A stretch of DNA of 36,661 nucleotides from Syntrophaceae bacterium (GTDB lineage: Bacteria > Desulfobacterota > Syntrophia > Syntrophales > UBA5619), in assembly GCA_003141195.1 (NCBI GenBank), contig PLLC01000088.1, positions 84,780 to 121,440 on the forward strand, in the 5' to 3' direction. The notes under the pieces are model-generated. The model saw nothing but the letters and a program-made list of their open reading frames with translations. It was not told the origin of the DNA and made no database searches. Numbering within the stretch: the first letter of the stretch is position 1; each line of letters begins with the position of its first letter. Positions 4,471 through 34,619 of this stretch are shown here, one piece after another. Made by a program: the position numbers and the translations under genes.

Positions 4471-4487
4471 CATTGGGCGCCGGATCG

Positions 4488-4544: not shown

Positions 4545-4644
4545 CAGAAGGCACAGGGAAAATGGGGACTAATAGGGATTATGTCCCCGAATTAATCCGT
4601 TAAATTCATCTGCCCATTGCAGCGGTTTAAGAGAGGTTATCGTT

Positions 4645-5387: not shown

Positions 5388-5463
5388 GGATAGGGAAAAT
5401 GGTGATTAATATCCGATAGATGTCCTCTTGTTTGCGCCGTCACAGGTCAGGAACGCGATTCCT

Positions 5464-5562
5464 GGGACACTACTGAGTCACATCCTGAAAAACGGAATTG
5501 AAATTGCTCATTGACCGCTCCAAGGAAATTCCCAAAGGCACATGCCATGCAATAATAAAAGC
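5464..5562 (+). repeat. 99-bp direct repeat, copy B
   Basis: Reads identical to copy A at 1036-1134: R1 followed by the hicA 3' fragment. The extension GTTTGCGCCGTCACAGGTCAG upstream (from about 5427) is shared with the repeat at 3577. Together copies A and B bound 4.4 kb of TA genes as direct repeats. Confidence 0.9.
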
Positions 5563-5567
5563 TGCCA

Positions 5568-5680
5568 AAAAAAGCTACAAGATTTGTAGATTGAGCGACA
5601 AATTTTGGATATGGGGACTGGGGTAATCTGGGGACATGACCCGAATTCGTTAGAAATCGGGATCGTGTCCCCACATTATT
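5568..5680. repeat. Repeat R2 copy 2 plus palindrome E4
   Basis: Positions 5568-5646 repeat 2974-3052 with few changes. They run into TAATCTGGGGACATGACCCG...GGGATCGTGTCCCCACATTA, an imperfect palindrome ending near 5680. This is the right edge of the TA array. Confidence 0.85.
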
Positions 5681-8964: not shown

Positions 8965-10683
8965 ATGTCTGAGAAATGCATGAATAATTCGCCACCTTGC
9001 AAAGACACGGATGATGTTATCCTACCGCATATTTCTGAATTGCAGGACGGCGCCGAAGCCGGCAGCGCGTTGCCCACGAACATGAAGTTTTCTTGGCTGT
9101 TCAAAAAACCGCGCATTTTTGTGCTTATCTTTTTCCTTGTTTATCTTGCCATCGGCATTTCCATTTATAAAGACTATGGCATTTCCTGGGACGAGCCGGT
9201 ACACCGCGAGATCGCCGGTGTTACGGCAAAATACCTGTCATCCCTTGTCATGCCTGACTTTCACCCCCCGGAGTTTTCCTCCTTGCCTCCTCTTGCGAAA
9301 TACGGAGCGAAAGAATACGGTATCATTTTCGATTTGCCCATGTATGTTGCCGATCTCCTGCTGGGCTATAACGGCACAATGCCTGAAGCGTACTATCTGC
9401 GACATTTATGCAATTTTCTCCTGTTTTATGTCAGTGTGTTCTTCTTCTATTTGATCGTCAGAAACCGGTTTGAAAGCCGGGCATTGGGCTTGATAGCGTG
9501 CTTTTTTCTGATCCTGAGTCCCCGCATTTTTGCCGAATCATTCTATGGCAAAGACATTGTCTTTCTTTCTCTCTTCATTATCTCCATTTATTTCTTTATC
9601 CGTTATCTGAACAGAAAAACCCTCATGAATTCGATATTATTTGCCTTGGCCACCGCCCTTGTGGTGGATCAACGAATCACGGGGGTATTTATTCCCTTTC
9701 TTGCCGTTTTTGTAACGGGCATCGATGAAATGAAGGCAGGCCGGACATTCAATAATTTGCACAAAAGGCTGTTCCCTTTGTTTATATACCTGATTTCGTT
9801 TTCTTTTTTTATGGTACTTTTTTGGCCTTACCTCTGGGAAAACCCGGCGCGGAATTTCATCAATGCATTTGGGGTCATGAACAGATTCCCCATTTCTTAC
9901 TACGTCCTCTACCTGGGCACATTCATCAAATCAACAGCAGTCCCCTGGCATTACATTCCCGTATGGATTCTGATCACGACGCCGGTGATATACACTTTTT
10001 TCTTCCTGATCGGTACCTTCTTGGCGATCCAGGGGATGATAAAGAACGGGATCAAGCTTTACTCGAATGACAGGGAACGCCAGGATTTTCTGTTTATTCT
10101 TCTCTTCGTCGTGCCGTTGGCTGCTGTGATTGTTCTCAATTCCGCTCTCTATGATGGCTGGAGACACTTGTATTTCATCTATGCGCCTTTTCTGCTCATT
10201 GCCATGACAGGAGCAGCCCGGTTGCTGGGTCTTATGGAGGAAGCCCGTTCCGGCCGTGAGCGGCGTGCGGCGTTATTCATAGCGGCCGTCATTGCGCTTG
10301 GCATTATCTCTACACCCTATCAGATGATACGATATCACCCCTTTCAGAATGTTTATTTCAACACATTAGCCGGCAATAATGTGGGACAGATATTTGAGCT
10401 CGATTACTGGGGTTTGTCTTTTCGCAAGGGACTGGAATATATCGTCAAAAGCGACAAAAGGCCTATTATAGGATTGTTAGCGAATCCGATTACACCCATG
10501 AGAAACAATTCTGTTTTTCTCGAAAAAGGAGATATCAAAAGACTGAGGCATGCCGATATTAATCAGGCGAACTATTTTCTGACAAATTACCGTTGGCATC
10601 CTCAACCCTATCAATTAGCCAATGAAGTTTACTCAATTTCCATAGATAACCAAAAAATAATGTCCATATTCAAACTGCGCTGA
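8965..10683 (+). CDS. GT-C (GT39-like) membrane glycosyltransferase
   Basis: A 572-residue multi-pass protein. After a hydrophilic N-terminus, the first membrane helix (RIFVLIFFLVYLAIGISIY) is followed by YGISWDEPVHREIAG. The acidic DE pair at this place is characteristic of GT39/ArnT-like transferases that use polyprenyl-phosphate sugars. About ten more helices follow, with a short C-terminal soluble part. The start at 8965 has AAGGA seven bases upstream; a longer in-frame start at 8917 does not. It likely acts with the surface-glycan genes nearby, but the acceptor is unknown. Confidence 0.72.
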   Translation: MSEKCMNNSPPCKDTDDVILPHISELQDGAEAGSALPTNMKFSWLFKKPRIFVLIFFLVYLAIGISIYKDYGISWDEPVHREIAGVTAKYLSSLVMPDFHPPEFSSLPPLAKYGAKEYGIIFDLPMYVADLLLGYNGTMPEAYYLRHLCNFLLFYVSVFFFYLIVRNRFESRALGLIACFFLILSPRIFAESFYGKDIVFLSLFIISIYFFIRYLNRKTLMNSILFALATALVVDQRITGVFIPFLAVFVTGIDEMKAGRTFNNLHKRLFPLFIYLISFSFFMVLFWPYLWENPARNFINAFGVMNRFPISYYVLYLGTFIKSTAVPWHYIPVWILITTPVIYTFFFLIGTFLAIQGMIKNGIKLYSNDRERQDFLFILLFVVPLAAVIVLNSALYDGWRHLYFIYAPFLLIAMTGAARLLGLMEEARSGRERRAALFIAAVIALGIISTPYQMIRYHPFQNVYFNTLAGNNVGQIFELDYWGLSFRKGLEYIVKSDKRPIIGLLANPITPMRNNSVFLEKGDIKRLRHADINQANYFLTNYRWHPQPYQLANEVYSISIDNQKIMSIFKLR

Positions 10684-10793
10684 AAGTTTTAACTTCTAAC
10701 ACTTTTCAGCCGTCATGATGATGGTGTGCACTCTGGAGGAAACCGGGGGTTCAGGTCTTGCCTTAACAGTTATTCCGAGCCAATAAGATAGAC

Positions 10794-22028: not shown

Positions 22029-22961
22029 ATGAAGACAATCAGTATCATGACCCCCTGCTACAACGAAGAAGAAAACATCCGCGAACTGGTGGATCGTATC
22101 CGCAATGTCATGGAAGAATTGCCGGAATATGCGTATGAACATATTCTGATCGACAATGCCTCCAAAGACAACACTGTCGCCGTTCTTCGCGAAATTTCCT
22201 CCGAAGACAAACACATCAAAGTAATCGTAAACACGCGCAATTTCGGACATATCCGTTCGGGTTATTATGCCCTACTGCAGGCAAGAGGAGACGCGGTAAT
22301 TGGCATGGCGTCGGACCTGCAGGACCCGCCGGAAATGATTCCGCAATTCGTAAAGAAATGGGAGGAAGGATTTAAAATCGTGCTGGGGGTCAAAGAAAGC
22401 AGCGCGGAATCGCCTCTCTTTTTTCATGTTCGCAAAGCCTATTATAAAATGGTTAGCAAACTATCCGAAGTGGAATTGATGCAAAACACAACCGGCTTTG
22501 GACTGTATGACAAGAAGGTGATCGAAATTCTCCGCCACATCGACGATCCCTATCCCTATTTCCGCGGCCTCATCTGCGACATCGGTTTCGAAATCGCCCC
22601 CATTCCGTTCCACCAGCCCACGCGCAAACGCGGGTTCACAAAAAACAATTTTTACACGCTCTACGACCTGGCCATGCTGGGTATTACCAATCATTCTAAG
22701 GTACCCCTCAGGTTGGCGACGATGACGGGTTTTTCAGTGGCGCTTATGAGTCTTGCTGTTGCTCTTGCTTATTTTATTTATAAATTGATTTTCTGGGATA
22801 ACTTTCAGGTTGGGATGGCGCCTCTTGTCATCGGCCTCTTTTTCTTTTCATCCGTTCAGTTGTTTTTCATCGGTATCATCGGCGAATATATCGGCGCCAT
22901 TCATACCCAGGTGCTGAAGCGGCCATTGGTCATCGAAAAGGAACGAATCAATTTCGATTAA
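22029..22961 (+). CDS. gtrB: Polyprenyl-phosphate glycosyltransferase (GtrB/DPM1-like GT2)
   Basis: A 310-residue enzyme moving a sugar from NDP-sugar to undecaprenyl phosphate on the inner membrane face. ISIMTPCYNEEENI starts the GT-A fold, ILIDNASKDNT and GMASDLQDPPEMI hold the metal-binding acids, and two C-terminal hydrophobic helices (SVALMSLAVALAYFIYKLIF, PLVIGLFFFSSVQLFFIGII) anchor it. The start at 22029 has GGAG upstream. Its 3' end is repeated at 24480-24633 and 26269-26345. The gtrA partner is 3.4 kb downstream. Confidence 0.9.
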   Translation: MKTISIMTPCYNEEENIRELVDRIRNVMEELPEYAYEHILIDNASKDNTVAVLREISSEDKHIKVIVNTRNFGHIRSGYYALLQARGDAVIGMASDLQDPPEMIPQFVKKWEEGFKIVLGVKESSAESPLFFHVRKAYYKMVSKLSEVELMQNTTGFGLYDKKVIEILRHIDDPYPYFRGLICDIGFEIAPIPFHQPTRKRGFTKNNFYTLYDLAMLGITNHSKVPLRLATMTGFSVALMSLAVALAYFIYKLIFWDNFQVGMAPLVIGLFFFSSVQLFFIGIIGEYIGAIHTQVLKRPLVIEKERINFD

Positions 22962-23043
22962 AAGCCGGGAGTCAATTTTGCAACAGATACTTGAACACTT
23001 GAGTGAAATCATCCTTGAGGCAGGCCGCACGGAGAAAAAATGA
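22962..23043 (+). pseudogene. gtrA and wzm 5' fragments fused after gtrB
   Basis: AAAAGCCGGGAGTC and TTTTGCAACAGATACTTGAACA match the leader and first codons of the real gtrA (26344-26386). At 22999 this switches to LSEIILEAGRTEK, the start of an ABC-2 exporter permease also found at 28361. Its stop overlaps the start of the next gene (ATGA), so recombination has joined three genes here. Confidence 0.75.
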
Positions 23044-24404
23044 ACGAAGAAACCATCCTGAATTTCATAAAAAAAGGCGAATCCGAAACGGTCGAGTTCA
23101 AATCCGCCTTCGATCAGGCGGCGATTGAAACGCTTGCCGCTTTCGCCAATACAAAGGGCGGGTATGTTTTTGTCGGTGTTGCAGATTCTGGCAAGATTGT
23201 CGGCGTCCAGCTTGGCAACGAGACGATCCCGCAATGGCTAAATCAGATAAAAACCAACACGTTTCCCACTCTTATACCGGATGTTGCGACCGCTGCCATT
23301 GATCATAAAGACATCGTGATCTTTATGATCGACGAGTTTCCGATCAAGCCCGTAAGCTGCCGAGGGAAATATCTGAAAAGAGTCAGGAATGCAAACCATC
23401 AGATTCCCATTCACGAGATATCCGATCTTCATTTGCGAAGTTATCAGACAAGCTGGGATTTCTATTCCGACACCCGCCATGGACTGGAGGACATCTCTTT
23501 AGCGAAAGTGAGCAAATTCATAGAAATATCAAATCGGATTCGCCCCAATCCCATTCTAGATGATCCCCTCACGGTGCTCAAAAAATTCGAGTTAATCAAG
23601 GAGACATCAATTACGAATGCATGCTATCTACTTTTTGCAACGGAGGATGTCCTTATATCCACGATAGAGATAGGGCGTTTTGATAGCGACACCCTCATTC
23701 AGGACAGCCTAACCATACGATCGGACCTGTTTGGTGAAGTGGATGCGGCGCTCTCGTTTATTCGAAAACATCTGAATAGATCTTACATCATTACCGGAGA
23801 TAAACAGCGGGAGGAACGCTGGGACTATCCCCTTACGGCGCTTCGCGAAATTGTGGTCAACATGATTGTCCACCGCGACTACATGAGTTCAAGCGATTCC
23901 ATGATCAGAATATTTGACGACCGGATAGAATTCTTCAATCCCGGTCGCCTGATGGCCGGGCTGTCGATAGAGCAGTTGGTGCGCGGCAACTACGTCTCCG
24001 CCATCCGCAACAAACAGATCGCTACGCTTTTTAAAGAGGCCGGGATCATTGAGAAATACGGTTCCGGCATTAAACGGGTATTGGAATCTATAAGGACATA
24101 CGGGCTAATGGATCCGTCGTTTGAGGAGATCCAGGATGGGTTTCGGGTAACCTTTTTCAAAACCACCCAGAAAACCACCCAGAAAACCACCCAGAAAACC
24201 ACCCAGAAAACCACCCAGAAAACCTCAACTAAGGACCAGATTCTCGATATCCTCCGAGGAAATCCAAAGCTTACCCGTGGTGAGATGGCGCAATTGTTGG
24301 GGAAGAGTCAAAATACCATCAAGGACAATCTGGCCGCGCTCAAATCTGAAAACCGGGTGGAACGCATGGGGAGCGACCGCGACGGTTATTGGAGAGTGAA
24401 GTGA
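23040..24404 (+). CDS. AlbA_2/Schlafen-type ATP-binding regulator
   Basis: A 454-residue protein. ESETVEFKSAFDQAAIETLAAFANTKGGYVFVGV (residues 12-45) is the AlbA_2 domain. ALREIVVNMIVHRDY with IRIFDDRIEFFNPGRL (about 275-320) is the HATPase_c_4 region. The C-terminus (DQILDILRGNPKLTRGEMAQLLGKSQNTIKDNL) is a winged helix. A KTTQ linker repeated five times joins the last two parts. Family members are often called RecG-like or transcriptional regulators, and some sit in defence islands. It is inserted between gtrB and a gtrB 3' copy. Confidence 0.85.
   Translation: MNEETILNFIKKGESETVEFKSAFDQAAIETLAAFANTKGGYVFVGVADSGKIVGVQLGNETIPQWLNQIKTNTFPTLIPDVATAAIDHKDIVIFMIDEFPIKPVSCRGKYLKRVRNANHQIPIHEISDLHLRSYQTSWDFYSDTRHGLEDISLAKVSKFIEISNRIRPNPILDDPLTVLKKFELIKETSITNACYLLFATEDVLISTIEIGRFDSDTLIQDSLTIRSDLFGEVDAALSFIRKHLNRSYIITGDKQREERWDYPLTALREIVVNMIVHRDYMSSSDSMIRIFDDRIEFFNPGRLMAGLSIEQLVRGNYVSAIRNKQIATLFKEAGIIEKYGSGIKRVLESIRTYGLMDPSFEEIQDGFRVTFFKTTQKTTQKTTQKTTQKTTQKTSTKDQILDILRGNPKLTRGEMAQLLGKSQNTIKDNLAALKSENRVERMGSDRDGYWRVK
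24159..24218 (+). repeat. 12-bp tandem repeat encoding KTTQ x5
   Basis: AAAACCACCCAG occurs five times without change, then degenerates to AAAACCTCAACT. Each unit is four codons, so copy-number change alters linker length without shifting frame. Confidence 0.95.
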
Positions 24405-24479
24405 TAAGAATGATGAATTCTCCCCTGATTACGTTCGCGATCCTTAATTGGTATTATGGATGTCCCCGGATTTCATGCA

Positions 24480-24633
24480 GGTAGGGATGGTGCCGCTGGT
24501 CATAGGTCTGTTTTTCTTTTCATCCGTTCAGCTTATCTTCATCGGTATCATCGGGGAATATATCGGCGCCATTCATACCCAGGTGCTGAAGCGGCCATTG
24601 GTCATCGAAAAGGAACGGATCAATTTCGACTGA
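24480..24633 (+). pseudogene. gtrB 3'-end copy 2
   Basis: Encodes VGMVPLVIGLFFFSSVQLIF to ...EKERINFD, matching the last 51 residues of GtrB (22809-22961). The first half differs at many third positions; the second half is nearly identical. Directly before it (24451-24474) is GGTATTATGGATGTCCCCGG, a copy of the GGGGACA-type repeat, so the break coincides with a repeat motif. Confidence 0.9.
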
Positions 24634-24688
24634 ATAGCAGGGTGGACCTTTAGAGACTGAGGATTGAACAAAGCGCAAGATTAACTAT

Positions 24689-24747
24689 TTGATATTGAGC
24701 CGAAATATGCTATACAATGCCTTAATATAAAAACTTTTACATTAAGG
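24689..24747 (+). promoter_or_regulatory. Promoter and inverted repeat before the AAA gene
   Basis: TTGATA at 24689-24694 and TATACA at 24711-24716, 16 bases apart. CCTTAAT (24720-24726) pairs with ATTAAGG (24741-24747), partly covering the GGGAGG ribosome site. It could be an operator or could mask translation. Confidence 0.5.
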
Positions 24748-24756
24748 GAGGAAGGT

Positions 24757-26217
24757 GTGTCGAAGTTGCCGTGGGGCTTTTATGGAAGAAGGCGGGAGGT
24801 TGAGCAAATCCTTGAAATCCTTCGACGTGGGCGGTGGTTTTTCCTGAAGATATCGGGGCGAAGGCGGATCGGCAAGACAAGCCTGGTGCAAGAGGCACTG
24901 CGAGAAATCGGGAGAGAGCGGGCGGTCTATCTCCAGATCCCGGATTCCGACCCCGCCGGCGTTCTTTCGACAGTTCGCGACTTTTATGCCACCTTCGGCC
25001 TGGAAAACCGCACTCCCCGCGATCTCGGCGCGTTTGCCGCCAGCATCGCCGGTCTCGTCCGTGACGGATTTGTCGTCATCATCGATGAGTTCCAGTATTT
25101 TCACCGCCAGTCCCTGGCCGAGTTCACCTCTCATCTGCAATACGAGGTGGACCGTCTGGCAAGGGAGGCAGATCGGGTACCCGGCGGCCTCATCGTACTT
25201 GGCTCCATCCATACGGAGATGGCGGCGCTTCTGGAGGACAGGACGGCGCCTCTATTCAACCGCCTGACAGACCAGATGGAACTTCCCCATCTCGATATCG
25301 CGTCCATCCTCGAGATCCTGCAAATCCACGCCGATGATGCCCCGGAGAGGCTGCTTTTTCTCTGGAATCTTTTCGAGGGGGTCCCGAAGTTTTATCGGGA
25401 CTGCTACGAGCAGGACGTCTTGGACGCCGACCGCCGGGAACTGCTGAGGAAGATGTTTTTCACCAGTTCTTCGCCGCTCCGGATGGAAGCGGAAAGCTGG
25501 TTTCTCAGAGAGCTGCGCGGCCGCTATGATCTGATTCTGAAGTATGTTGCACGACATCCAGGATGTACGAACAGCGATCTCGACGCCCATGTGAAGTCCT
25601 CCCTGTCAGGAAACGGCAAGCAGGTGGCGGGCTATATAAAGGTCCTGCGCGAACGTTATGGGATGATTGAACGACTACAGCCTGTCTTCGCCAAACCGAC
25701 GGCACGCAACGGACGATTTTATCTCAAAGATAACTTCCTGCGGACCTGGCTTTCCGTCCTGGCCGTTCCCACTGCTTCGGTAAATTTCAGACCCTTGGAG
25801 CCCTTGATCGCTGAAGCGGATCAGCGGCTTGCCGAAGCGGAAGGTTACGGGTTTGAAAGGCTTATCCGGGAGCTCTACAAAGAACGCAGCCGTAAGGGAA
25901 TCGGTGATTTCGAGTTGACGTCGCAGATTCATGGATATTGGGACAAGGCGGGAACGGAAATCGACCTGGTCGCGCTCAATGATGAGGCGAGAATCGTACG
26001 TTTGGGGTCGTGCAAGAGGAATGCGGATCGCCTTGTAGGCGGACTGAAGCGGTTTGACGGCCATGTCGAACGGTTTCTTCGCCTGAGACCTGAACTCAGC
26101 AACTGGAAAGTAGAAAAATCGGCAATCGCACCTCGCCTTTCAACTGAGGCGCGGCGAGCCGCCGAGGAGGCCGGTTATATCGCTCAGGATTTAGTGGATC
26201 TGACCGTGGGGCTGTGA
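24757..26217 (+). CDS. AAA ATPase of the archaeal-ATPase/DUF234 type
   Basis: A 486-residue protein. FYGRRREVEQI leads to Walker A (KISGRRRIGKTSLVQ) and Walker B (GFVVIIDEFQYF). The C-terminal third (YGFERLIRELY, GTEIDLVALND, RLGSCKRNAD) resembles the PD-(D/E)XK-like DUF234 region. Biological role of the family is not established; it often lies in mobile or defence regions. The start is GTG at 24757 with GGAGG nearby. It is flanked by two gtrB 3' copies and appears to have its own promoter. Confidence 0.82.
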   Translation: MSKLPWGFYGRRREVEQILEILRRGRWFFLKISGRRRIGKTSLVQEALREIGRERAVYLQIPDSDPAGVLSTVRDFYATFGLENRTPRDLGAFAASIAGLVRDGFVVIIDEFQYFHRQSLAEFTSHLQYEVDRLAREADRVPGGLIVLGSIHTEMAALLEDRTAPLFNRLTDQMELPHLDIASILEILQIHADDAPERLLFLWNLFEGVPKFYRDCYEQDVLDADRRELLRKMFFTSSSPLRMEAESWFLRELRGRYDLILKYVARHPGCTNSDLDAHVKSSLSGNGKQVAGYIKVLRERYGMIERLQPVFAKPTARNGRFYLKDNFLRTWLSVLAVPTASVNFRPLEPLIAEADQRLAEAEGYGFERLIRELYKERSRKGIGDFELTSQIHGYWDKAGTEIDLVALNDEARIVRLGSCKRNADRLVGGLKRFDGHVERFLRLRPELSNWKVEKSAIAPRLSTEARRAAEEAGYIAQDLVDLTVGL

Positions 26218-26268
26218 TAACTAACGATTATTCTGAGATAATTGTCAAGGTTGAAATGGCTCATTGTA

Positions 26269-26345
26269 GAATATATCGGCGCCATTCATACCCAGGTGCT
26301 GAAGCGACCATTGGTCATCGAAAAGGAACGGATCAATTTCGATTA
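26269..26345 (+). pseudogene. gtrB 3'-end copy 3
   Basis: EYIGAIHTQVLKRPLVIEK then ERINFD and a TAA stop, nearly identical over 77 bases to the last part of gtrB. Here the homology continues into the original leader of gtrA, so this is probably the native gtrB-gtrA junction. Confidence 0.9.
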
Positions 26346-26362
26346 AAAGCCGGGAGTCCCTT

Positions 26363-26815
26363 TTGAAACGGATACTCGACCACTTATGGCTGAATCATCA
26401 GACGAAGGTCCGCTTTGTCCTGGTTGGCCTCTGGAACACGATTTTTGGTTATCTCGTCTTTGTTGGGCTCGACTATTTGTTTAATCTTTTTTTCTCACCG
26501 CGCTACGTTGCCTACATGTCGGCAGCGGTTTTAGCGAATATTATCGCCATCCTCAATGCTTACATATTTCACAAGTTTGTCACTTTTCGATCTCCCTTAC
26601 GGGGCCTCGCCATTATTCCGGAATTTGTGCGTTTTTTTTCCATGTATCTGTTCAGTTTTTTTCTTGGCCTCGTTCTTCTTCCCGTTTTTGTGGAAATATT
26701 CCATCTTGATCCCAAAATAGCCGGCGCATTGCTCATCCCGATCACGATGATCATCAGTTATCTCGGCCATTCCCGGTTTTCATTCAGGCAAGATAACGAG
26801 GCGCATCATTCATAA
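26363..26815 (+). CDS. gtrA: GtrA-like membrane protein
   Basis: A 150-residue protein with four membrane helices: VRFVLVGLWNTIFGYLVFVGL, YMSAAVLANIIAILNAYIFHKFVTF, FFSMYLFSFFLGLVLLPVFV and IAGALLIPITMIISYLGHSRFSF. This is the GtrA/DPMS-type family thought to flip or present polyprenyl-phosphate sugars. It starts with TTG at 26363, GGGAG upstream. It normally follows gtrB; here two ATPase genes separate them. Confidence 0.85.
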   Translation: MKRILDHLWLNHQTKVRFVLVGLWNTIFGYLVFVGLDYLFNLFFSPRYVAYMSAAVLANIIAILNAYIFHKFVTFRSPLRGLAIIPEFVRFFSMYLFSFFLGLVLLPVFVEIFHLDPKIAGALLIPITMIISYLGHSRFSFRQDNEAHHS

Positions 26816-26875: not shown

Positions 26876-27034
26876 TCAGTCCTGGGTTTTCAGAACTGCG
26901 AGAAGAATTTCCATCTCCTGCCGATATTCCTGCAGGCGGTCGTACACCATGAGGGCTTCTGTCGCATTGTAGGTGTGCGACATGCGATTGCGTGCGGATA
27001 GCATATCCAGCCAGATTTTATGCGAATGCAACCT
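26876..27034 (-). pseudogene. HEPN (HI0074-type) C-terminal fragment
   Basis: Reads IWLDMLSARNRMSHTYNATE and ALMVYDRLQEYRQEMEILLAVL to a stop at 26876. RNRMSH fits the HEPN RNase motif R-X4-H, and WLDMLSARN-SHTY is typical of nucleotidyltransferase substrate-binding (HI0074-like) proteins. The N-terminal half and the nucleotidyltransferase partner are missing; the break lies inside the YgiT-type gene's 3' end. Confidence 0.7.
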
Positions 27035-27266
27035 GAGGAAGTTCGACATAACTGTCGGGCTTTTCGGTTTTCTTTTGGATGGCGAAGAAACGGCGTTCGA
27101 TTTCCTTCAGGACCTTCGCATCGAAATAGACCATCCCGCAATTCAGGCAAATTTCTACCGGCGTATTGGGGACAAGCAAATAATTGCCCTTATACGAGTA
27201 AAGATAATCCGTTCGTCGCTCCTCGTATTGCGGGCTCCCGCAATAAATGCATTTCTTATTTTCCAT
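27018..27266 (-). CDS. YgiT-type zinc-finger antitoxin
   Basis: An 82-residue protein: KKCIYCGSPQYEERRTDYLYSYKG with CxxC, then EICLNCGMVYFDAKVLKEIE with a second CxxC, which together bind one zinc. This is the MqsA-N/YgiT-type fold. It lacks the HTH half of MqsA, as is usual when the partner is DUF4258. It overlaps the toxin gene by 11 bases. The C-terminus ends at the junction with the HEPN fragment. Confidence 0.85.
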   Translation of the reverse strand: MENKKCIYCGSPQYEERRTDYLYSYKGNYLLVPNTPVEICLNCGMVYFDAKVLKEIERRFFAIQKKTEKPDSYVELPQVAFA

Positions 27267-27570
27267 GTTCCCTGCTCCTTGTCCACGGATCGACGAATTT
27301 CGGCGGCTTCGGAACGTAAACCGTAACGATTACGATCTTATCTCCCCGTCTTCCGCAAACGACATGAATCGGAATATTTTCTGAAAATCCAACCAACAGA
27401 CAGCTTTCTCCGCGGCCATCATCCGGGTATTGCTCCAAAATGTCCCCGGCCAGAATCGCTTCCTCGATCTGATAAAAGGTGAGATCGTCCGCCTTTCTTT
27501 CGATTTCATCATGCAGTGTATATTCATACTGGTTCTTCCCGACTTTCTCCTTTATTTCATCAACGATCAT
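27256..27570 (-). CDS. DUF4258-family toxin
   Basis: A 104-residue protein: EYTLHDEIERKADDLTFYQIEEAILAGDILEQYPDDGRGESCLLVGF, then PIHVVCGRRGDKIVIVTVYVP. This is the DUF4258 RelE-like pattern, known beside YgiT-type zinc-finger antitoxins. It is the first gene of the minus-strand pair. Family action as an RNase is presumed. Confidence 0.82.
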   Translation of the reverse strand: MIVDEIKEKVGKNQYEYTLHDEIERKADDLTFYQIEEAILAGDILEQYPDDGRGESCLLVGFSENIPIHVVCGRRGDKIVIVTVYVPKPPKFVDPWTRSREHGK

Positions 27571-27815
27571 TTTGTTTTTTCCCGATCGTGATGGTTGGGT
27601 TCAGTATATTGAAATTGCGCTCGCTTTGCAATCCGAAATAATCGTCCGGTTTGTGAACGGCCATCCCGCCCTTGAGCTTTACCTGGAGGCCAGACGCCGG
27701 ATCATGGCGATGATGCCGGTTTATGGGTGATAACGATATAGAATTATTTAGATTGAATGGAGTTAGTGGTGGATTACGGAAATAATTATCACTGGACTGA
27801 AAGCAGGGAGTGGCA

Positions 27816-27835
27816 TAGAATACGATCGTATTCTA
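27816..27835. promoter_or_regulatory. Perfect 20-bp palindrome upstream of higA
   Basis: TAGAATACGATCGTATTCTA is perfectly self-complementary and lies 67 bases before the HigA ATG. HigA-type antitoxins bind palindromes, so autorepression is likely. The rest of 27571-27902 shows only a possible unidentified gene 3' end (FVNGHPALELYLEARRRI, to a stop near 27730). Confidence 0.65.
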
Positions 27836-27902
27836 CTTTGGAGGTGAAGTAAGATGAATCAAGGAAGCGCCAAGAAAGTGAAGACTAGAAAGGAGAAACA
27901 CC

Positions 27903-28217
27903 ATGAATGCCATGCGCCCCATACATCCCGGCGAGGTGCTGAAGGAAGAGCTTGCCGAAATTAACATGTCCGCCAATGCCTTTGCCCAGGCACTACACGT
28001 GCCGGCCAACCGGATAACCGCTATCCTGAGCGGTACCCGTTCCATTACCGCTGATACCGCGCTACGGATTTCCTTTTTCTTCGGCACCACGCCGGAATTC
28101 TGGCTGAATCTTCAGACATCATATGACTTGAAGGTGGCCAGAGAATCTGTTGGTAAAAAGGTAAAACAGGAGGTCAGATCATTCATACCCACCATGCCGC
28201 GCCTGACACACGCATAA
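27903..28217 (+). CDS. higA: HigA-family HTH antitoxin without toxin
   Basis: A 104-residue protein: MRPIHPGEVLKEELAEINMSANAFAQALHVPANRITAILSGTRSITADTALRISFFFGTTPEFWLNLQTSYDL is a standard HigA/VapI helix-turn-helix. AAAGGAG precedes the ATG. No HigB lies upstream, so the toxin is missing. The last 24 residues (from VGKKVKQEVRSF) are encoded by a 73-bp repeat also at 32393-32465, so the C-terminus may be of foreign origin. Confidence 0.88.
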   Translation: MNAMRPIHPGEVLKEELAEINMSANAFAQALHVPANRITAILSGTRSITADTALRISFFFGTTPEFWLNLQTSYDLKVARESVGKKVKQEVRSFIPTMPRLTHA

Positions 28218-28218
28218 A
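28146..28218 (+). repeat. 73-bp repeat at the higA 3' end
   Basis: TCTGTTGGTAAAAAGGTA to CACACGCATAAA matches 32393-32465 with three differences. It covers the last codons and the stop of higA. Confidence 0.85.
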
Positions 28219-28228
28219 GCTGATTGAA

Positions 28229-28361
28229 TTCCGGGGATAGTCTGCTTGTAGCGCACGGATAGATCGCGCCATGCCATAATCAGAAAAAGCTCCCGGTAGT
28301 GCCAGAGATCGGCCCAGTAGTTTTTCTCGGTGCGTCCTGCCTCAATGATAATTTCGCTCAT
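28229..28361 (-). pseudogene. ABC-2 exporter permease (Wzm-like) 5' fragment
   Basis: MSEIIIEAGRTEKNYWADLW then HYRELFLIMAWRDLSVRYKQT is the start of a polysaccharide ABC-exporter permease. After RYKQT the normal sequence is lost at about 28229, next to GGGGATA. A shorter piece of a related start lies at 22999. The exporter itself is not in the window. Confidence 0.8.
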
Positions 28362-28420
28362 GAATTTACCGAATTATGAGAACTGCGGGGAGCGCTTTCC
28401 GATGGAGCTACGGCTACCCG

Positions 28421-28654
28421 TCATGAATGTTTCATGTTGATGAAATCTTCGGCTGAAATATCCGCTTGTTTCAAGATTGCCCTGAGAGTACCTTGGGGCA
28501 TGTCGCCTGTGTGATTTGGGATGGTTGTATAGCAGCCTGTTGATTTATTGTACCAGATTTCGTGGCTTCCCGCCGCTTGACGGAGGAACGAGAAGCCAAA
28601 TAACTTGAGACGTTGTACGATGTCTCGATATCTAAAACCGGACAACTGTCCCAT
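28421..28654 (-). CDS. hicA: HicA-family toxin
   Basis: A 77-residue protein: YRDIVQRLKLFGFSFLRQAAGSHEIWYNKSTGCYTTIPNHTGDMPQGTLRAILKQADIS. GSHEIW has the HicA catalytic His and MPQGTLRAILKQA is a classic motif. It follows hicB on the minus strand after three bases. It looks complete and active. Confidence 0.9.
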   Translation of the reverse strand: MGQLSGFRYRDIVQRLKLFGFSFLRQAAGSHEIWYNKSTGCYTTIPNHTGDMPQGTLRAILKQADISAEDFINMKHS

Positions 28655-28657
28655 GGT

Positions 28658-28882
28658 TTATGTTCCTACGATCAAAGGATACTCAAAAGAATCACTGATA
28701 GCTCCCAGATTTACGGCTGGGAAGCCTTGCTCTTCTATGAGCTTTCTCGCCACATCCCTCGCGATTTCAAGCGTCTCGGAAATAGTTCTCCCCTGCGCAA
28801 CCAATCCCTGAATATCATCGGATGTCGCCAGGTATAGTCCTTCAGGCAATTTTTCGAGATGAATTTTAATCATTTTCTCCAT
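28658..28882 (-). CDS. hicB: HicB-family antitoxin
   Basis: A 74-residue protein: IKIHLEKLPEGLYLATSDDIQGLVAQGRTISETLEIARDVARKLIEE, the short HicB fold. GAGGAG sits eight bases before the ATG at 28882. It is first in the pair. No DNA-binding tail is seen. Confidence 0.88.
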   Translation of the reverse strand: MEKMIKIHLEKLPEGLYLATSDDIQGLVAQGRTISETLEIARDVARKLIEEQGFPAVNLGAISDSFEYPLIVGT

Positions 28883-29188
28883 AGCTATAACTCCTCTTTT
28901 TCAGTGCAACTTTGGGGTCTCGAAATTGAGTATGGCTTGTAACCCATCCTGCATTTTTGTCGTCCGATGAAAGGGTGGGGCAGTGCCCTTACTTGTTTGA
29001 TGATTTAAAGAATCATATCGAAAGGTGCGAGGAATAGCAACATGTAATTCTGGGGGGCAACACACCCTTGACAGGCATTTCAAAGAACAAGGATTCATAT
29101 ATCTCCCGGCATAGGGAGGCTTGCAAGTCGTCAGATACAAATGCGCCTTTGCGCTTTATGACGGCAATTAGCTGTCAATATGAGCGTG

Positions 29189-29213
29189 GTATGTCGAATA
29201 TTTGTCGACATAC
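29189..29213. promoter_or_regulatory. Inverted repeat, candidate AbiEi operator
   Basis: GTATGTCGA and TCGACATAC, both nine bases and perfectly complementary, are separated by ATATTTG. It lies 55 bases before the AbiEi-like start. AbiEi antitoxins are known to bind inverted repeats at their promoters. The remainder of the 28883-29268 gap shows nothing else I can name. Confidence 0.6.
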
Positions 29214-29268
29214 TACGATGGATTGTGTTATATCCCTCCGTCAATCCATGATAATGAAGGAAACAGAA

Positions 29269-29790
29269 ATGATCGAAGAACTGCGAAGCAAGATCACGGG
29301 CGAGGAGTTTGATTATCCGGCCCTTTTGGACGGTCTGCGGGAATACGACCGCCCCCGTGACAAGATCACGTCCCTGCTGGGACAGGGGGCCGTCGTCCGG
29401 GTAAAGAAGGGCATTTACGTTTTTGGGGAGAGATACAAGCGGCGCCCCTTCTCCAGAGAGGTCCTGGCAAATATGATCTGCGGGCCTTCCTATATTTCCC
29501 TCGATTACGCCTTGCATTACTACGGCCTGATTCCGGAAAGAGTCGAAGCGGTGACGTCGGTTACCGTCAGCCGGGGCAGGCGCTTTTCCACCCCTGTCGG
29601 CCTTTTCATTTACCGCGCCGTTCCCATGAGAGCCTACCCGATCGGCATCGACCGGGTAGAACTCGATGGAGGGCGCTCCTTTCTCATCGCGATCCCGGAG
29701 AAAGCCCTGGCTGATAAGATCCAGGCTGACCGGGGAACGGCGGCTGCGCGCCTGCCGGGAGCTGGGGCTGCCGACGATTCCCGCCCGTGA
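29269..29790 (+). CDS. AbiEi-like type IV antitoxin, 3' end replaced
   Basis: A 173-residue protein. Residues 1-60 (EFDYPALLDGLREYDRPRDKITSLLGQGAVVRVKKGIYVFG) are the winged-helix N-terminus; FSREVLANMICGPSYISLDYALHYYGLIPE and IPEKALADKI are AbiEi core motifs. The last 19 residues lie in DNA whose other frame reads ParB (GERRLRACRELGLP), so the real C-terminus has been lost. No AbiEii toxin follows. Start at 29269 has AAGGA seven bases upstream. Confidence 0.75.
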   Translation: MIEELRSKITGEEFDYPALLDGLREYDRPRDKITSLLGQGAVVRVKKGIYVFGERYKRRPFSREVLANMICGPSYISLDYALHYYGLIPERVEAVTSVTVSRGRRFSTPVGLFIYRAVPMRAYPIGIDRVELDGGRSFLIAIPEKALADKIQADRGTAAARLPGAGAADDSRP

Positions 29791-29809
29791 ATTCACCGGA
29801 ATTCACCCG
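29732..29809 (+). pseudogene. ParB-family central fragment
   Basis: In the frame +1 to AbiEi, GERRLRACRELGLPTIPARE is the ParB nuclease-domain motif. Its first 25 bases repeat those at 30840-30864 with one mismatch. The sequence after ARE is not recognisably ParB. Confidence 0.72.
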
Positions 29810-29903
29810 AAGGATTCAGAAGGGCCTGGATCGACTCCTGGAGGTTCATGAGAGTCTGGTTGAAGGTCGTCGGGGCTCTGTTCTGCCTTCGCCTGCCGCA
29901 TCT

Positions 29904-30149
29904 TCACCGATTTGCCAAAAGTTCATCAATTTCTTGATCCGTGAAACCAAACTGACGAAAAATCCGGATAACGTAAGGCGGAGACAATTCACCTGCACCC
30001 GTATCGATGGGAGCTGTTCTTTTTCGACCCTCAACGATACGCAAGTATATATCGTGATCTCCCTTTCCATGCCTGAGAAAAGAACACCCACCGCCTGCCA
30101 GTATACGCAGCAGTTCCCTGGGCTTGAGGGATGGTACGTTTTTAGGCAT
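29904..30149 (-). CDS. hicA: HicA-family toxin
   Basis: An 81-residue protein: SLKPRELLRILAGGGCSFLRHGKGDHDIYLRIVEGRKRTAPIDTGAGELSPPYVIRIFRQFG. GDHDIY carries His at the HicA position. It overlaps hicB by eight bases on the minus strand. The C-terminal extension is longer than usual. Confidence 0.85.
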   Translation of the reverse strand: MPKNVPSLKPRELLRILAGGGCSFLRHGKGDHDIYLRIVEGRKRTAPIDTGAGELSPPYVIRIFRQFGFTDQEIDELLANR

Positions 30150-30408
30150 AGACCGCCCTGAGTTCGTATGTTTCTAATGTAGGTTCTCGCCCTTCTATGG
30201 ATAGAAATTCGTGCAATTCATTGATGGCAATGGGGGCCGTAAAAAGTGATGGATCGTCGGAGAAAGCCAACTCCAGAGATGCGATAGCCTCTCTCATTTT
30301 TATAAGCGCCTCCTCTTTTGTTGACCCCTGGCTGACAACACCATTTTCCAGGCACAACGCCACCCAGTAGTCACCGCTTCTTCTTAAAATAGTCGTGAGA
30401 AATGACAT
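30142..30408 (-). CDS. hicB: HicB-family antitoxin
   Basis: An 88-residue protein: FLTTILRRSGDYWVALCLENGVVSQGSTKEEALIKMREAIASLELA. AAGGAGG lies seven bases before the ATG. TATAAT is visible on the minus strand at 30441-30446. First gene of the pair; no DNA-binding domain. Confidence 0.85.
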   Translation of the reverse strand: MSFLTTILRRSGDYWVALCLENGVVSQGSTKEEALIKMREAIASLELAFSDDPSLFTAPIAINELHEFLSIEGREPTLETYELRAVYA

Positions 30409-30548
30409 CCTTCAACCTCCTTAATGACTGGTCAGCTATAATTATAAACTATCTCTTTTTTTCAGAGTTGTCCATGCTTAAGTTGACCCGGCGTACTTTC
30501 TCAACAACACCGCCAATCACCTTTCCCTCGCGGTAAGCTGCGGAAATC

Positions 30549-30606
30549 CGGGAAATCCGGGGACATAATACCAATTAAGGTGAATTCCATGAATTCCTGT
30601 CCCCAG
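30549..30606. repeat. GGGGACA motif pair before parB fragment
   Basis: CCGGGGACATAATACCAATT (30549) and CCTGTCCCCAGAATTC (30595) are inverted copies of the window-wide motif, with GGTGAATTCC and GGAATTCA-like sequence between. They sit exactly where the ParB reading frame becomes recognisable. Confidence 0.75.
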
Positions 30607-30611
30607 AATTC

Positions 30612-30887
30612 ACTTCGGTCAAGCAGAACGAACAGGCCGCCGGAAACGGCGGCGGAGACGCCGTCCGCGAGGAGTATCTGAATATTCCGCTCAGCGAGAT
30701 CGTGATCGACGCCCAGATCCGGAGCGAAATTGACGTGGAAGACGAATCATTCCAGTCCCTCAAGGCCTCCATCCGGGACTGGAACGTGATGGCGCCTATC
30801 ATCTTGATGCGGATGGAGAAGGGCTACCGGCTCATCGCCGGGGAGCGGCGGCTGCGCGCCTGCCCGCAGACTTTCCCTCATCCCTGA
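30612..30887 (+). pseudogene. ParB N-terminal fragment
   Basis: EEYLNIPLSEIVIDAQIRSE, then SFQSLKASIRDWNVMAPIIL and GYRLIAGERRLRAC is the ParB/Spo0J nuclease-like domain. There is no start codon upstream (repeat DNA instead), and after RLRAC the frame runs into the 3' end of the DUF4143 gene. The complementary piece is at 29732, so one or two parB copies have been broken up. Confidence 0.82.
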
Positions 30888-32266
30888 GTTAACAGCCGTT
30901 CCAATTGATGCACCAAATAAAAGGGGATATTAAGCAATCTGAAACCGCGCTCAACTTTATTCACTTTGGCCACCAGTTGATTCACGGACGGCTTGGCAGA
31001 ACTAATCTTGATGGCCTGGTCGGCTTGTTTTTTAACGACATACGAGTGTAACGACTTTATCGTGCCCCCTGAACCCGATTTGACCTCTATGGGATACACT
31101 CGATTTGCACAGGGAAAAAGGAAGTCAACCTCTGCTTGACCCTCTGACTTTGGAGGTTGCCAGTAGTACAATTCAGGCTGAATATAACCCTTTTTAGAAT
31201 AGAGCAATTGCTGACCCACAAACTGCTCCGCCAACACACCATGATTGGCCAATTCGAGAGGTGAGTTCATAACCATTTGAGCGGGCAGGCCTTGTGCTGC
31301 CAATAACAACCCGATATCGACAAACAAAAACTTGCTGATTCTTATTTTTGTTTCAGCACCCAATGGAATTCTGCCTGCATTGCTGTGAAGCACGCGATAG
31401 AACAAACGGGCCTCCAGAAAGCGCTCAATCGCTGAATTCAATTGCCGATTATCACCACTGGTCATGGCAGAAATCTCGTTGGCCTGTTTATGGGAAAATT
31501 GAAAACCCACCTGCCTTAAAATACCATTAAAAAAAGCATTGAGCCGAAGGGCGTTTTGAGTGCCGGCGTATTTGGCAAAATCATCCTTATAGGTTTGAAT
31601 CAACGCTGTCTGATGTTTCAGAATATCAGCATGATTAAAATGCCTATCAATGCCGAGCTGGATACACCCGGGCATTCCACCTGTGAGCGTGTAGCGTCGA
31701 ACGAGCGCCATCAGGTCGTCATGCACAGAGTCAGGCATCAGGTGCATGTTATTCACATGAAGCATCTCAATGGCTTGCAACGCTTTGGTCTCACCGATCG
31801 CAAAAAGAAACTCTTCAAATGTCAATGGTCCCATGAAGTAGGGTTCAATGCGGCCGACAGGGGTGGGAAGCTTGATATCATTGAGCACCTGATCGAGTAA
31901 GGAACCCGTTAAAATCACGGCCAGGCCAGGCATATCCTCCGAAAAATAACGTAAACACGGATACGCGGAAGGTGTCGCCTGTGCTTCATCAAGAAATAGA
32001 ATGATGTTACTGTCTCGGGTAATCTGCTCGCCGCTCATAAGAGAAAAGTTAAACAACAACTCATCCAGTTTGTAACGCTGAAACAGGGGTTCCAATTCGG
32101 TATGCCGCTCAAGATTGACTTCAATCACGTTGACAGAGAGCTCTTCCGCCGCAAGACGGACTGCCGTTGTTTTCCCCACCTGCCTTGCTCCACGGATGAC
32201 CAAAGGCTTGCGCTTGTTTTGTTGATACCAGGCCTTGATATCTTCTATCGCACGTCGATTAAACAC
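30878..32266 (-). CDS. DUF4143 AAA ATPase
   Basis: A 462-residue protein: KPLVIRGARQVGKTTAVRLAAEE (Walker A), NIILFLDEAQATP (Walker B), then GPLTFEEFLFAIGE. The C-terminal part GQAEVDFLFPCANRVYPIEVKSGSGG is the DUF4143 PD-(D/E)XK-like motif. Role unknown; the family is common on mobile DNA. Complete in length. Base composition is more AT-rich than in neighbours, suggesting separate acquisition. Confidence 0.88.
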   Translation of the reverse strand: MFNRRAIEDIKAWYQQNKRKPLVIRGARQVGKTTAVRLAAEELSVNVIEVNLERHTELEPLFQRYKLDELLFNFSLMSGEQITRDSNIILFLDEAQATPSAYPCLRYFSEDMPGLAVILTGSLLDQVLNDIKLPTPVGRIEPYFMGPLTFEEFLFAIGETKALQAIEMLHVNNMHLMPDSVHDDLMALVRRYTLTGGMPGCIQLGIDRHFNHADILKHQTALIQTYKDDFAKYAGTQNALRLNAFFNGILRQVGFQFSHKQANEISAMTSGDNRQLNSAIERFLEARLFYRVLHSNAGRIPLGAETKIRISKFLFVDIGLLLAAQGLPAQMVMNSPLELANHGVLAEQFVGQQLLYSKKGYIQPELYYWQPPKSEGQAEVDFLFPCANRVYPIEVKSGSGGTIKSLHSYVVKKQADQAIKISSAKPSVNQLVAKVNKVERGFRLLNIPFYLVHQLERLLTQG

Positions 32267-32392
32267 CGCATCTCCTCCCCGTCACAATTCATCTAAAAAC
32301 ATATTACGAATTAAAGTGGCACATATTATGTCAAAACATGAATTAAAGTCAATGATTTTAAATCGCGATGTTCGACAATAGGGAAATCGGGA

Positions 32393-32465
32393 TCTGTTGG
32401 TAAAAAGGTAGGACAGGAGGTCAGACCATTCATACCCACCATGCCGCGCCTGACACACGCATAAA
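32393..32465 (+). repeat. 73-bp repeat, second copy
   Basis: Matches 28146-28218 at all but three positions. Here there is no higA gene before it, so it is a stranded 3' fragment or a copy of an independent repeat. Confidence 0.85.
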
Positions 32466-32551
32466 ACCGGGGTCAAGGCTTACCAAACCGTGATCGCCGT
32501 ACCATGACCTTGCTGACCATGGATCTCAGTTCCGGGAAAAGAGGGTGATCG

Positions 32552-32824
32552 TTAATAAGCATCCCCTCTTGGCAAAATGGCAATTATTTCAACGATTCTC
32601 TTGTCTCGTAGCGGCCGATAAATAATCCGCCAATCGCCGGTTCTATAACGAAACAATCCTTTGAGTGATCCGGTTAGCGGTCTTATATTTGTCCCGTACA
32701 GGGGATTGTCTTCCAGAACTGCAAAGCAATGATCAAACTGTTCCTGCAGCTCGCGGGTCACATGATCGTAATTCTTTTCAGCCGGTTTGGTCAGGAAGAT
32801 TTCCCAGATTTCTTGTCTCGCCAT
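32552..32824 (-). CDS. RelE/ParE-family toxin
   Basis: A 90-residue protein: WEIFLTKPAEKNYDHVTRELQEQFDHCFAVLEDNPLYGTNIRPLTGSLKGLFRYRTGDWRIIYRPLRDKRIVEIIAILPRGDAY. The GLFRYRTGDWRIIY strand-turn is diagnostic. Overlaps the antitoxin by 34 bases. Whether it acts as a RelE RNase or ParE gyrase poison cannot be read. Confidence 0.88.
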   Translation of the reverse strand: MARQEIWEIFLTKPAEKNYDHVTRELQEQFDHCFAVLEDNPLYGTNIRPLTGSLKGLFRYRTGDWRIIYRPLRDKRIVEIIAILPRGDAY

Positions 32825-33039
32825 CGGATAGTTTCGCCCCTTTCAGATGCCCTCAGCCCTTCCTGGATTGTATCCACCCATTGAGGATTGGAAAGAATTT
32901 CCAGCGTCTCTTTGTGCCGTTCCAGGTATTCGTCAATGAGATCCGAAAGGATCATCTGCATATCCCGTTTTTCTATGCTCGCCACAATTTTCAGCATGTC
33001 TCGTTTGTCTTCAGGAATTCGTACGGTAGTCGTTGCCAT
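32791..33039 (-). CDS. Ribbon-helix-helix antitoxin
   Basis: An 82-residue protein: TTTVRIPEDKRDMLKIVASIEKRDMQMILSDLIDEYLERH is the DNA-binding RHH; the rest (PQWVDTIQEGLRASERGE) binds toxin. AGGAGG lies seven bases before the ATG at 33039, preferred over a start 18 bases upstream. It is first in the pair. Confidence 0.85.
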   Translation of the reverse strand: MATTTVRIPEDKRDMLKIVASIEKRDMQMILSDLIDEYLERHKETLEILSNPQWVDTIQEGLRASERGETIRWRDKKSGKSS

Positions 33040-33097
33040 AGCGCCACCTCCTGACACTAATCTACAAAGCGACTATTCTTTTGTCAAGTAAATGAAC

Positions 33098-33121
33098 TAC
33101 CCCGCAGCTTGCTGCGGGGTA
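33098..33121. repeat. 24-bp perfect hairpin
   Basis: TACCCCGCAGC-TT-GCTGCGGGGTA. No T-run follows, so a terminator is doubtful. A second short inverted pair (GAAGCAAGCTTC) follows at about 33138. Sits between the MazEF and RelE-type pairs. Confidence 0.85.
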
Positions 33122-33173
33122 TCCAAGACGGCAAGTAACGAAGCAAGCTTCGGGGAATATGACCTGGAGAGAT

Positions 33174-33518
33174 TCAAGGGAGAGCCAAGTGGATTTTCAT
33201 CGCCCTGTCGATCGCGTCCAGGTCCTTTTTATCCAGGACGCCAATGTGTTTGATAACCCTGTTCTTATCGAGAGTTCGAATCTGGTCCGCTTTGATCTTA
33301 GAGTCTTTGGGTAAATTTGCACTGCCTTTGGAAAGAAAAACCTCAAAAGGATAGACAGGCTGGGTGTTTTTCGATGTGATGGGCAAAATCGTCACCGTTC
33401 CGGAAAATTTATTGTTTTGATCGTTGGAAACCACCACGACCGGGCGGGTTTTGGATATTTCCCGTCCCACGACAGGATCAAGGGTCGCAAGATAAATTTC
33501 GCCTCTTTTAATATTCAT
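33174..33518 (-). CDS. mazF: MazF/PemK-family toxin
   Basis: A 114-residue protein: MNIKRGEIYLATLDPVVGREISKTRPVVVVSNDQNN, then TVTILPITS and ADQIRTLDKNRV. All usual MazF motifs are present, so unlike the fragment at 1461 this one is complete. The start at 33518 overlaps the antitoxin end by 11 bases. It is a sequence-specific mRNA interferase by family. Confidence 0.9.
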   Translation of the reverse strand: MNIKRGEIYLATLDPVVGREISKTRPVVVVSNDQNNKFSGTVTILPITSKNTQPVYPFEVFLSKGSANLPKDSKIKADQIRTLDKNRVIKHIGVLDKKDLDAIDRAMKIHLALP

Positions 33519-33756
33519 CCCATCCCTCCAGATCGACGGCTTCAAATTCTTTGACAAGGGCGATATTTTCTTTTGCCGCGGCGCGATACCCTTCCTCAAG
33601 TTGCTTCTCCAATTCTACTTTTTTTCTCTGTACAATGTATTCCCGGATAGATTCCGAGATGATGCGGCTACGATTCCGGGGGCCGGCAATCTGGTTTAAA
33701 GATTCTACCTGGTCCTTTGGCAGAATGATATTTAATCGCACATTTTCCGTATGCAT
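33508..33756 (-). CDS. MazE-like ribbon-helix-helix antitoxin
   Basis: An 82-residue protein: NVRLNIILPKDQVESLNQIAGPRNRSRIISESIREYIVQRKK is an RHH domain; the acidic tail (LVKEFEAVDLEGWDEY) would bind MazF. AAGGAGG precedes the ATG at 33756, chosen over a start 33 bases upstream. Confidence 0.85.
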   Translation of the reverse strand: MHTENVRLNIILPKDQVESLNQIAGPRNRSRIISESIREYIVQRKKVELEKQLEEGYRAAAKENIALVKEFEAVDLEGWDEY

Positions 33757-33821
33757 AAAACACCTCCTTTTCGACGCATAATAAAGCACACGGAAACGTA
33801 TATTGTCAAGGGAAAGAATAT

Positions 33822-33929
33822 TTCGTTCTCTTCAGCCGGGCCGGCTTCACGGCGGACCTGGAGAAAACAGCCGAAGAAGAGGGGGTTCTGCTGGTCCGCA
33901 TGGAAAATTTGGGGCCATGTTTCCCCTAA
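33822..33929 (+). pseudogene. ATPase C-terminal fragment (DUF234-type)
   Basis: FVLFSRAGFTADLEKTAEEE and GVLLVRMENLG to a stop at 33929. The FSRAGF-x-LEKTAEEEGVLLV layout is how many AAA/DUF234 ATPases end. It has no start and no upstream part. Confidence 0.5.
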
Positions 33930-33969
33930 AACAAATGCAAATACACACGATTTTTGGAAAAAGAACATC

Positions 33970-33997
33970 TTGACATAGGACGGTTATGATGTATTAT
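33970..33997 (+). promoter_or_regulatory. Promoter TTGACA-N16-TATTAT for vapBC
   Basis: TTGACA at 33970-33975 and TATTAT at 33992-33997, 33 bases before the VapB ATG. Confidence 0.65.
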
Positions 33998-34030
33998 TTA
34001 ATCAAAAATATATGCTCATAGGAGAATACC

Positions 34031-34249
34031 ATGAGAACTACAATTAACATAAGAGATGATCTTATGGAAGCGCTCTTGACCCATACAAAGGCTAAGACTA
34101 AAACCAAAGCCATCGAATTATCCATCCGGGAGTATATAGAAAAAAAATCCATTGAAGATCTTGTCTCCCTTAGTGGTAAAATCAGTATCGATTCAGACTG
34201 GCAAAAGGAAGAAGAGGCTGAACTGAGTGAATACCGGAATCATCGTTGA
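34031..34249 (+). CDS. vapB: VapB-type antitoxin
   Basis: A 72-residue protein: MRTTINIRDDLMEALLTHTKAKTKTKAIELSIREYIEKKS is the VapB RHH; the acidic tail holds SDWQKEEEAELSEY. AGGAG precedes the ATG. It overlaps vapC by 23 bases and has its own promoter. Confidence 0.88.
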   Translation: MRTTINIRDDLMEALLTHTKAKTKTKAIELSIREYIEKKSIEDLVSLSGKISIDSDWQKEEEAELSEYRNHR

Positions 34250-34619
34250 TACTTGCGTTTGGATTGAGTTTTTCCGCGAGCCGGAATCGGAACTCACCCT
34301 CCACCTCAAGGGTCTTCTGCGGGAGCGTAAAGTGATCATGGTCGGTATGGTTATGGCCGAGATATTACAAGGCGTGAAAGCTCCAAAAGAAGCGGACCTT
34401 GTAAAACAAAGCCTGGAAAAACTGTCATACCTGGAAATTACGCGGGATAGTTGGGAAGCTGCCGGTGAAATATCGGCATCCCTCCGGGGCACAGGGGTCA
34501 CAATACCCCTCTCTGACCTGGCCATAGCGGCCGTGGCGCTTTCTGGAGACCATGAGATTTTCACCATCGATCCCCATTTCTACAAGGTAGATGGGCTGAG
34601 GCTTCACAATGTTCATTGA
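34227..34619 (+). CDS. vapC: VapC-type PIN toxin
   Basis: A 130-residue PIN RNase starting with GTG at 34227. IIVDTCVWIEFF (Asp), VMAEILQG (Glu), IPLSDLAIAAVAL (Asp) and IFTIDPHFYKV (Asp) are the four acidic positions. Complete and of normal length. Confidence 0.9.
   Translation: MNTGIIVDTCVWIEFFREPESELTLHLKGLLRERKVIMVGMVMAEILQGVKAPKEADLVKQSLEKLSYLEITRDSWEAAGEISASLRGTGVTIPLSDLAIAAVALSGDHEIFTIDPHFYKVDGLRLHNVH

Follow-up and report, generated by a model that had tools for sequence, protein, structure and literature searches.

The junction of gtrB with gtrA is probably the place at which polysaccharide clusters have been replaced in series, the right-hand breakpoints falling within the gtrB 3' end, the tails of older gtrB genes left behind as scars, and cargo genes accumulating between them. 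The reading was developed for one window, the whole 36,661-nt stretch analysed from a Syntrophaceae bacterium (GCA_003141195.1, contig PLLC01000088.1; genome G000), and draws mainly on relatives, in which gtrB and gtrA differ in ancestry, crossovers lie within gtrB, the solo gtrB 3' ends start at variable points and cargo is shared between genomes.

Layout of the window

The features from gtrB rightwards are as follows.

22029..22961, plus strand: intact gtrB with copy 1 of the 3' end; family 2 glycosyltransferase, 310 aa, Pfam PF00535
22962..23000, plus strand: gtrA 5' remnant 3' of the intact gtrB; aligns with 26347-26385 and with G046b, G303 and G431
23000..23039, plus strand: 5' remnant of a wzm-like ABC permease gene; 87.5% identical to window positions 28360-28321 (minus strand); the gtrA 5'/wzm 5' join recurs in G303 and G431
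23040..24404, plus strand: AlbA_2/Schlafen gene, the first cargo; 454 aa, Pfam SLFN_AlbA_2, HATPase_c_4 and HTH_24 (winged helix)
24456..24633, plus strand: copy 2 of the gtrB 3' end, residues ~253-310, from self-comparison
24634..24672, plus strand: gtrA 5' remnant of another type, 3' of copy 2; resembles the tails of the G154, G153 and G303 fragments
24757..26217, plus strand: AAA ATPase with DUF234, the second cargo; 486 aa, Pfam DUF234 and AAA, PADLOC PDC-S27 (E 1e-214)
26258..26346, plus strand: copy 3 of the gtrB 3' end, residues ~283-310, from self-comparison
26363..26815, plus strand: intact gtrA; 150 aa, Pfam PF04138, sister to the gtrA of same-genus G005 (support 94/95)
27018..34619, no strand assigned: toxin-antitoxin and defence-type genes right of gtrA (MqsA/DUF4258, HTH, HicA, AbiEi-like, DUF4143 ATPase, PemK, PIN)

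Comparison of the window with itself recovered both extra gtrB 3' ends far beyond chance: copy 2 at 24456-24634 (87% identity over 179 nt) or, alternatively, at 24478-24642 (90%), and copy 3 at 26261-26385 (91% over 125 nt, E 4e-44). An earlier note had described three gtrB 3' ends, with an AlbA_2 ATPase between the first two, a DUF234 ATPase between the last two and gtrA following; both the count and the order were upheld by the self-comparison and the Pfam matches. The match of copies 1 and 3 does not end at the gtrB stop but extends into the beginning of gtrA, so the intact gtrB has a gtrA 5' remnant behind it. The wzm-like assignment of the next remnant was made by eye from the peptide MSEIIIEAGRTEK, and the 60-aa remnant had no match in the Pfam scan. 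The nearest full-length relative of the intact gtrB is that of G303 (78%), with same-genus G005 at 71%, and the intact gtrA is most likely the resident gene.

Across all three copies the last 75 nt are 97% identical, and just upstream of this core copies 1 and 2 fall to 81%, bearing out the note's claim that copy 2 differs in its first half. The core identity exceeds the 79% predicted from upstream identity and intact pairs (z 3.8), suggesting that the copies have recombined with one another or were duplicated recently. Copies 1 and 3 have tails of one type, including the gtrA 5' end, and the tail of copy 2 is like those of the G154, G153 and G303 fragments. The codon changes between copies 2 and 1 are mostly synonymous (10, against 2 others), so copy 2 derives from a working gene. 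Judged by its sequence, with its different upstream half and tail type, that gene is a gtrB of another lineage, in agreement with the separate origin that had been claimed for it.

The gtrB-gtrA border in other genomes

Uninterrupted gtrB-gtrA junctions are present in G005, of the same genus as the window genome, and in G033, G069, G071, G078 and G084; in G042 and G023 the two genes are about 110 bp apart. The scarred layout, with other cargo at the same site, occurs in other families of the phylum (G154, G153, G303 and G431), with fragments in G046, G379 and G400, most of the genomes compared being draft assemblies. The order of genes at five of these borders is given below.

G154: gtrB, DUF4143 ATPase, AlbA_2 5' remnant, DUF4143 ATPase, gtrB 3' end, HipA, gtrB 3' end, gtrA
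G153: gtrB, gtrA 5' piece, methyltransferase, gtrA 3' piece, two small genes, gtrB 3' end, gtrA
G303: gtrB, MNT/HepT, gtrB 3' end, AlbA_2, short gtrB 3' end, gtrA
G431: gtrB 3' end (contig edge), DUF4143 ATPase, gtrB 3' end, MNT/HepT, gtrA
G379: gtrA piece, PIN-type pair, gtrB 3' end, gtrA 5' piece, ParE-type pair

The two small genes of G153 look like a toxin-antitoxin pair and had no Pfam match. A gtrB 3' end also lies immediately 5' of gtrA in G046 and G400, without a whole gtrB in the same orientation upstream, the G046 contig starting at that 3' end. Within the family of G303, the close gtrB type is found in G303 and G431 only. In G303 (L165 429-592), a fourth junction piece composed of a gtrB end, gtrA 5', wzm 5' and AlbA_2 5' was observed past gtrA, before a DUF4143 gene.

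The solo gtrB 3' ends are all C-terminal, with left edges at residues ~253, 264, 266, ~280, 290 and 292. No 5' gtrB fragments were found among the genomes opened: those matched by the 5' query only (G076, G080 and G086) carry whole genes, and a few further genomes (G067, G114, G137 and G016) gave weak 5' matches. Among 80 loci from other phyla, a set biased to full-length matches, no extra gtrB 3' fragment lay beside the full gene, and two full genes occurred at only 2 of the 80.

Pairwise comparison across the border showed that genomes of one genus have gtrA in common, some pairs also the sequence downstream of it, but for the most part neither gtrB nor the upstream flank. Two same-genus genomes, G153 and G154, share 0 nt upstream, 65% identity in gtrB, 78% in gtrA and 1979 nt downstream at 73%; for G033 and G084, also of one genus, the figures are 0, 64%, 79% and 2518 nt at 79%. 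The swapped side, in turn, is common to distant genomes: G153 and G084, from different families, have 2929 nt of upstream sequence in common (78% identity) as well as gtrB (79%), and their gtrA and downstream sequences could not be aligned. One same-genus pair, G078 and G084, is an exception in that the upstream 3 kb is also shared (78%).

The trees gave a similar picture. For gtrA, G153 with G154 and the four g17 genomes were each grouped at 100/100, and G000 with G005 at 94/95. For gtrB, G153 was placed with G078, G084 and Smithella (100/100), G071 with G005 (99/90) and G033 with G069 (99/92), with G000 apart. By these comparisons gtrA apparently follows the genus and gtrB does not, gtrA being short (150 aa) and both trees partly without resolution. 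Crossover traces lie within the border gene itself. In the unscarred pair G042 and G023, gtrB is about 55% identical up to the region of codon 225 and 85-94% identical beyond it. Between G303 and G005 the mismatch rate goes up some 73 nt before the gtrB stop, near the start of copy 3, from 12% to 32% (p 0.008). Taken together, the border comparisons, the trees and the in-gene crossovers indicate that the gtrB 3' end is the join of exchanged clusters to a resident gtrA.

For the window genome itself the border evidence is thin, since G000 and G005 share gtrA alone (81%), with the flanks on either side not shared; the G000 gtrA is sister to that of G005 and its gtrB is not, and no close relative of G000 displays the replacement step. 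Further left in the window, a membrane glycosyltransferase-like region (9124-10684) is 84.5% identical to G046:C5, from another family, and is a further sign of cluster exchange.

Cargo at the gtrB-gtrA borders includes DUF4143 ATPases, HipA, MNT/HepT and VapBC-type genes, among others; PADLOC places the DUF4143 ATPases in the candidate defence family PDC-S01, and PDC-S27, that of the DUF234 ATPase, is likewise a candidate defence family. Several of these genes cross family lines. AlbA_2 occurs in both G000 and G303, the MNT/HepT genes of G303 and G431 are 97.5% identical at the nucleotide level, the HepT end of G431 is 99% identical to that of G046, in another family, and HipA pieces are common to G154, G379 and G431. 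For the DUF234 ATPase of the window no homologue was found at E<1e-60 in 154 other genomes of the order. AlbA_2 homologues in G150 and G017 (86-91% nucleotide identity) have unrelated surroundings away from gtrB, and their homology extends from start codon to stop codon, within a few bases. Within the AlbA_2 gene of the window, a 12-nt tandem repeat at 24159-24224 encodes a (KTTQ)n stretch, and the G303 homologue has a similar run. In G017 (L185 2967-3905), a putative REP-associated transposase, recognised by eye, adjoins the AlbA_2 homologue, and inverted pairs of the GGGACAGCGCCCATTT type flank it.

Cluster replacement and alternative explanations

Under the favoured explanation, the gtrB-gtrA junction would be the right-hand border of a polysaccharide cluster swapped among bacteria of this phylum, the incoming cluster bringing its own gtrB and gtrA remaining in place. 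Where the right-hand join was made by homologous crossover within the conserved 3' part of gtrB, an intact gtrB-gtrA pair would form. An illegitimate join would leave the new cluster terminating in its own gtrB, a piece of its own gtrA and any gene carried along, and would trim the old gtrB to its 3' end, still 5' of the resident gtrA. Only 3' ends would survive because gtrA and its start region must stay while the old gtrB is redundant. For the window we infer at least two such events, which would have produced the order gtrB, AlbA_2, tail, DUF234 ATPase, tail, gtrA; their number and sequence in this genome are deduced from the layout. The tails may recombine with one another, the last 75 nt thereby being kept alike, with RecA as the presumed agent, and addictive toxin-antitoxin genes would persist as their clean removal is costly. 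The identical core can, instead of conversion, be read as a recent duplication.

It is possible, though rather doubtful, that the gtrB3'-gtrA5' repeats act as shuffling sites of a cassette array that needs no integrase, in which homologous recombination between these repeats would add, remove and rearrange toxin-antitoxin and defence genes across families. The polysaccharide border would then be an active exchange platform, beyond a graveyard of scars.

Insertion of selfish genes, each entering the gtrB 3' end and duplicating 75-200 bp of its target, would account for direct copies flanking the cargo, for cargo consisting of toxin-antitoxin and candidate defence genes, and for the ORF-exact ends of AlbA_2 in other contexts, and the concept exists in PMC3031569. 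Copies 1 and 3, which agree in type as far as the gtrA 5' end, could by themselves stem from one target, or from a simple duplication of that pair. Copy 2 does not fit a common target, as its upstream half and its downstream tail are unlike theirs. In the core, the fragments of G153 and G154 are likewise closer to each other (89%) than to the intact gtrB of their own genome (77% and 85%), and gtrB and gtrA are incongruent even where there is no cargo. We regard such insertion as unlikely.

Tandem duplication of gtrBA within one genome followed by partial deletions, the alternative already raised in the earlier note, has in its favour the gtrA 5' and 3' remnants between copies in G153, G379 and the window. 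That part of the proposal stands. The extra copies are largely from other lineages, the cargo varies and is common to several families, and the search of relatives turned up neither 5' gtrB fragments nor full gtrB duplicates degraded in steps, the pattern named beforehand as evidence against integration; on this evidence tandem duplication is improbable.

The note's own proposal, an integrative element that enters and restores the gtrB 3' end, is not supported. It would explain why only 3' ends are found, with cargo flanked by repeated ends and a core of 77 nt nearly identical in all three copies. The array proteins that were scanned with Pfam are of toxin-antitoxin, ATPase, AlbA_2 and methyltransferase types, with no integrase or other site-specific recombinase among them. 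The left edges range from residue ~253 to 292 in place of one sharp insertion point, the gtrB and gtrA trees are incongruent, and the AlbA_2 homologues elsewhere sit away from gtrB. Across lineages, conservation at fourfold third positions was 0.35 in the last 26 gtrB codons and about 0.3 elsewhere; fourfold sites being hardly more conserved, the gtrB 3' end is conserved as protein and not as an attachment site. With no integrase among the scanned proteins, no fixed edge and no att-like conservation, an integrative element was rejected, and a site-specific element using this end as its attachment site whose integrase has since been lost is very unlikely. A repeat-caused assembly artefact is scarcely credible: the genomes are drafts with arrays at contig edges in G046, G431 and G024, but the layout recurs with other cargo in assemblies made independently, in the interior of a 94-kb contig in G154 and of a 44-kb contig in G153, and joins such as gtrA 5'/wzm 5' recur in three genomes.

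Relation to known systems

Both cluster exchange through flanking genes and selfish-gene insertion with long target duplication are already known. O-antigen clusters of E. coli are exchanged by recombination in the flanking galF and gnd (PMC5359238), and capsule clusters of pneumococcus in the flanking dexB and aliA (PMC3537446). As in those systems, serial replacement at gtrB would leave the resident flank in place and replace the whole cluster, with crossovers in or near the border gene. The differences are that one of the cluster's own genes contains the border, in the 3' end of gtrB, that exchange crosses families, and that failed joins would leave a series of 3' scars separated by toxin-antitoxin and defence-type genes. 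Restriction-modification genes are proposed to insert with long target duplication (Nobusato et al. 2000, cited in PMC3031569). There too, genes of selfish type are flanked by direct copies of a target sequence; the copies here, however, are not from one target and the ancestry of the flanks differs. Chromosomal integron cassette arrays also have toxin-antitoxin and uncharacterised genes in a row with repeated sequence between them, but the repeat here is gene-derived (gtrB3'-gtrA5') and the array proteins scanned include no integrase. GtrA and GtrB families are likewise found in the serotype-converting gtrABC operons of phages. Here, in contrast, the order is gtrB-gtrA, the pair lies in a sugar-nucleotide cluster, and no phage integrase or attachment site was seen. 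A limited literature search returned no description of serial border-gene 3' scars with toxin-antitoxin cargo.

Read as scars, the 3' ends would let the succession of surface-polysaccharide cluster replacements in little-studied bacteria be read off, and would pin the border of exchange to one specific gene junction. With the border known, the donors of clusters may be traced by setting gtrB trees against gtrA trees. The scars would also illustrate one route by which polysaccharide loci become lined with toxin-antitoxin and defence-type genes. To the left of the cluster in the window (1030-5680), repeats of 50-180 nt lie between toxin-antitoxin genes, some of them REP-like hairpins (TAATCTGGGGACATGACC...GTGTCCCCAGATTATT).
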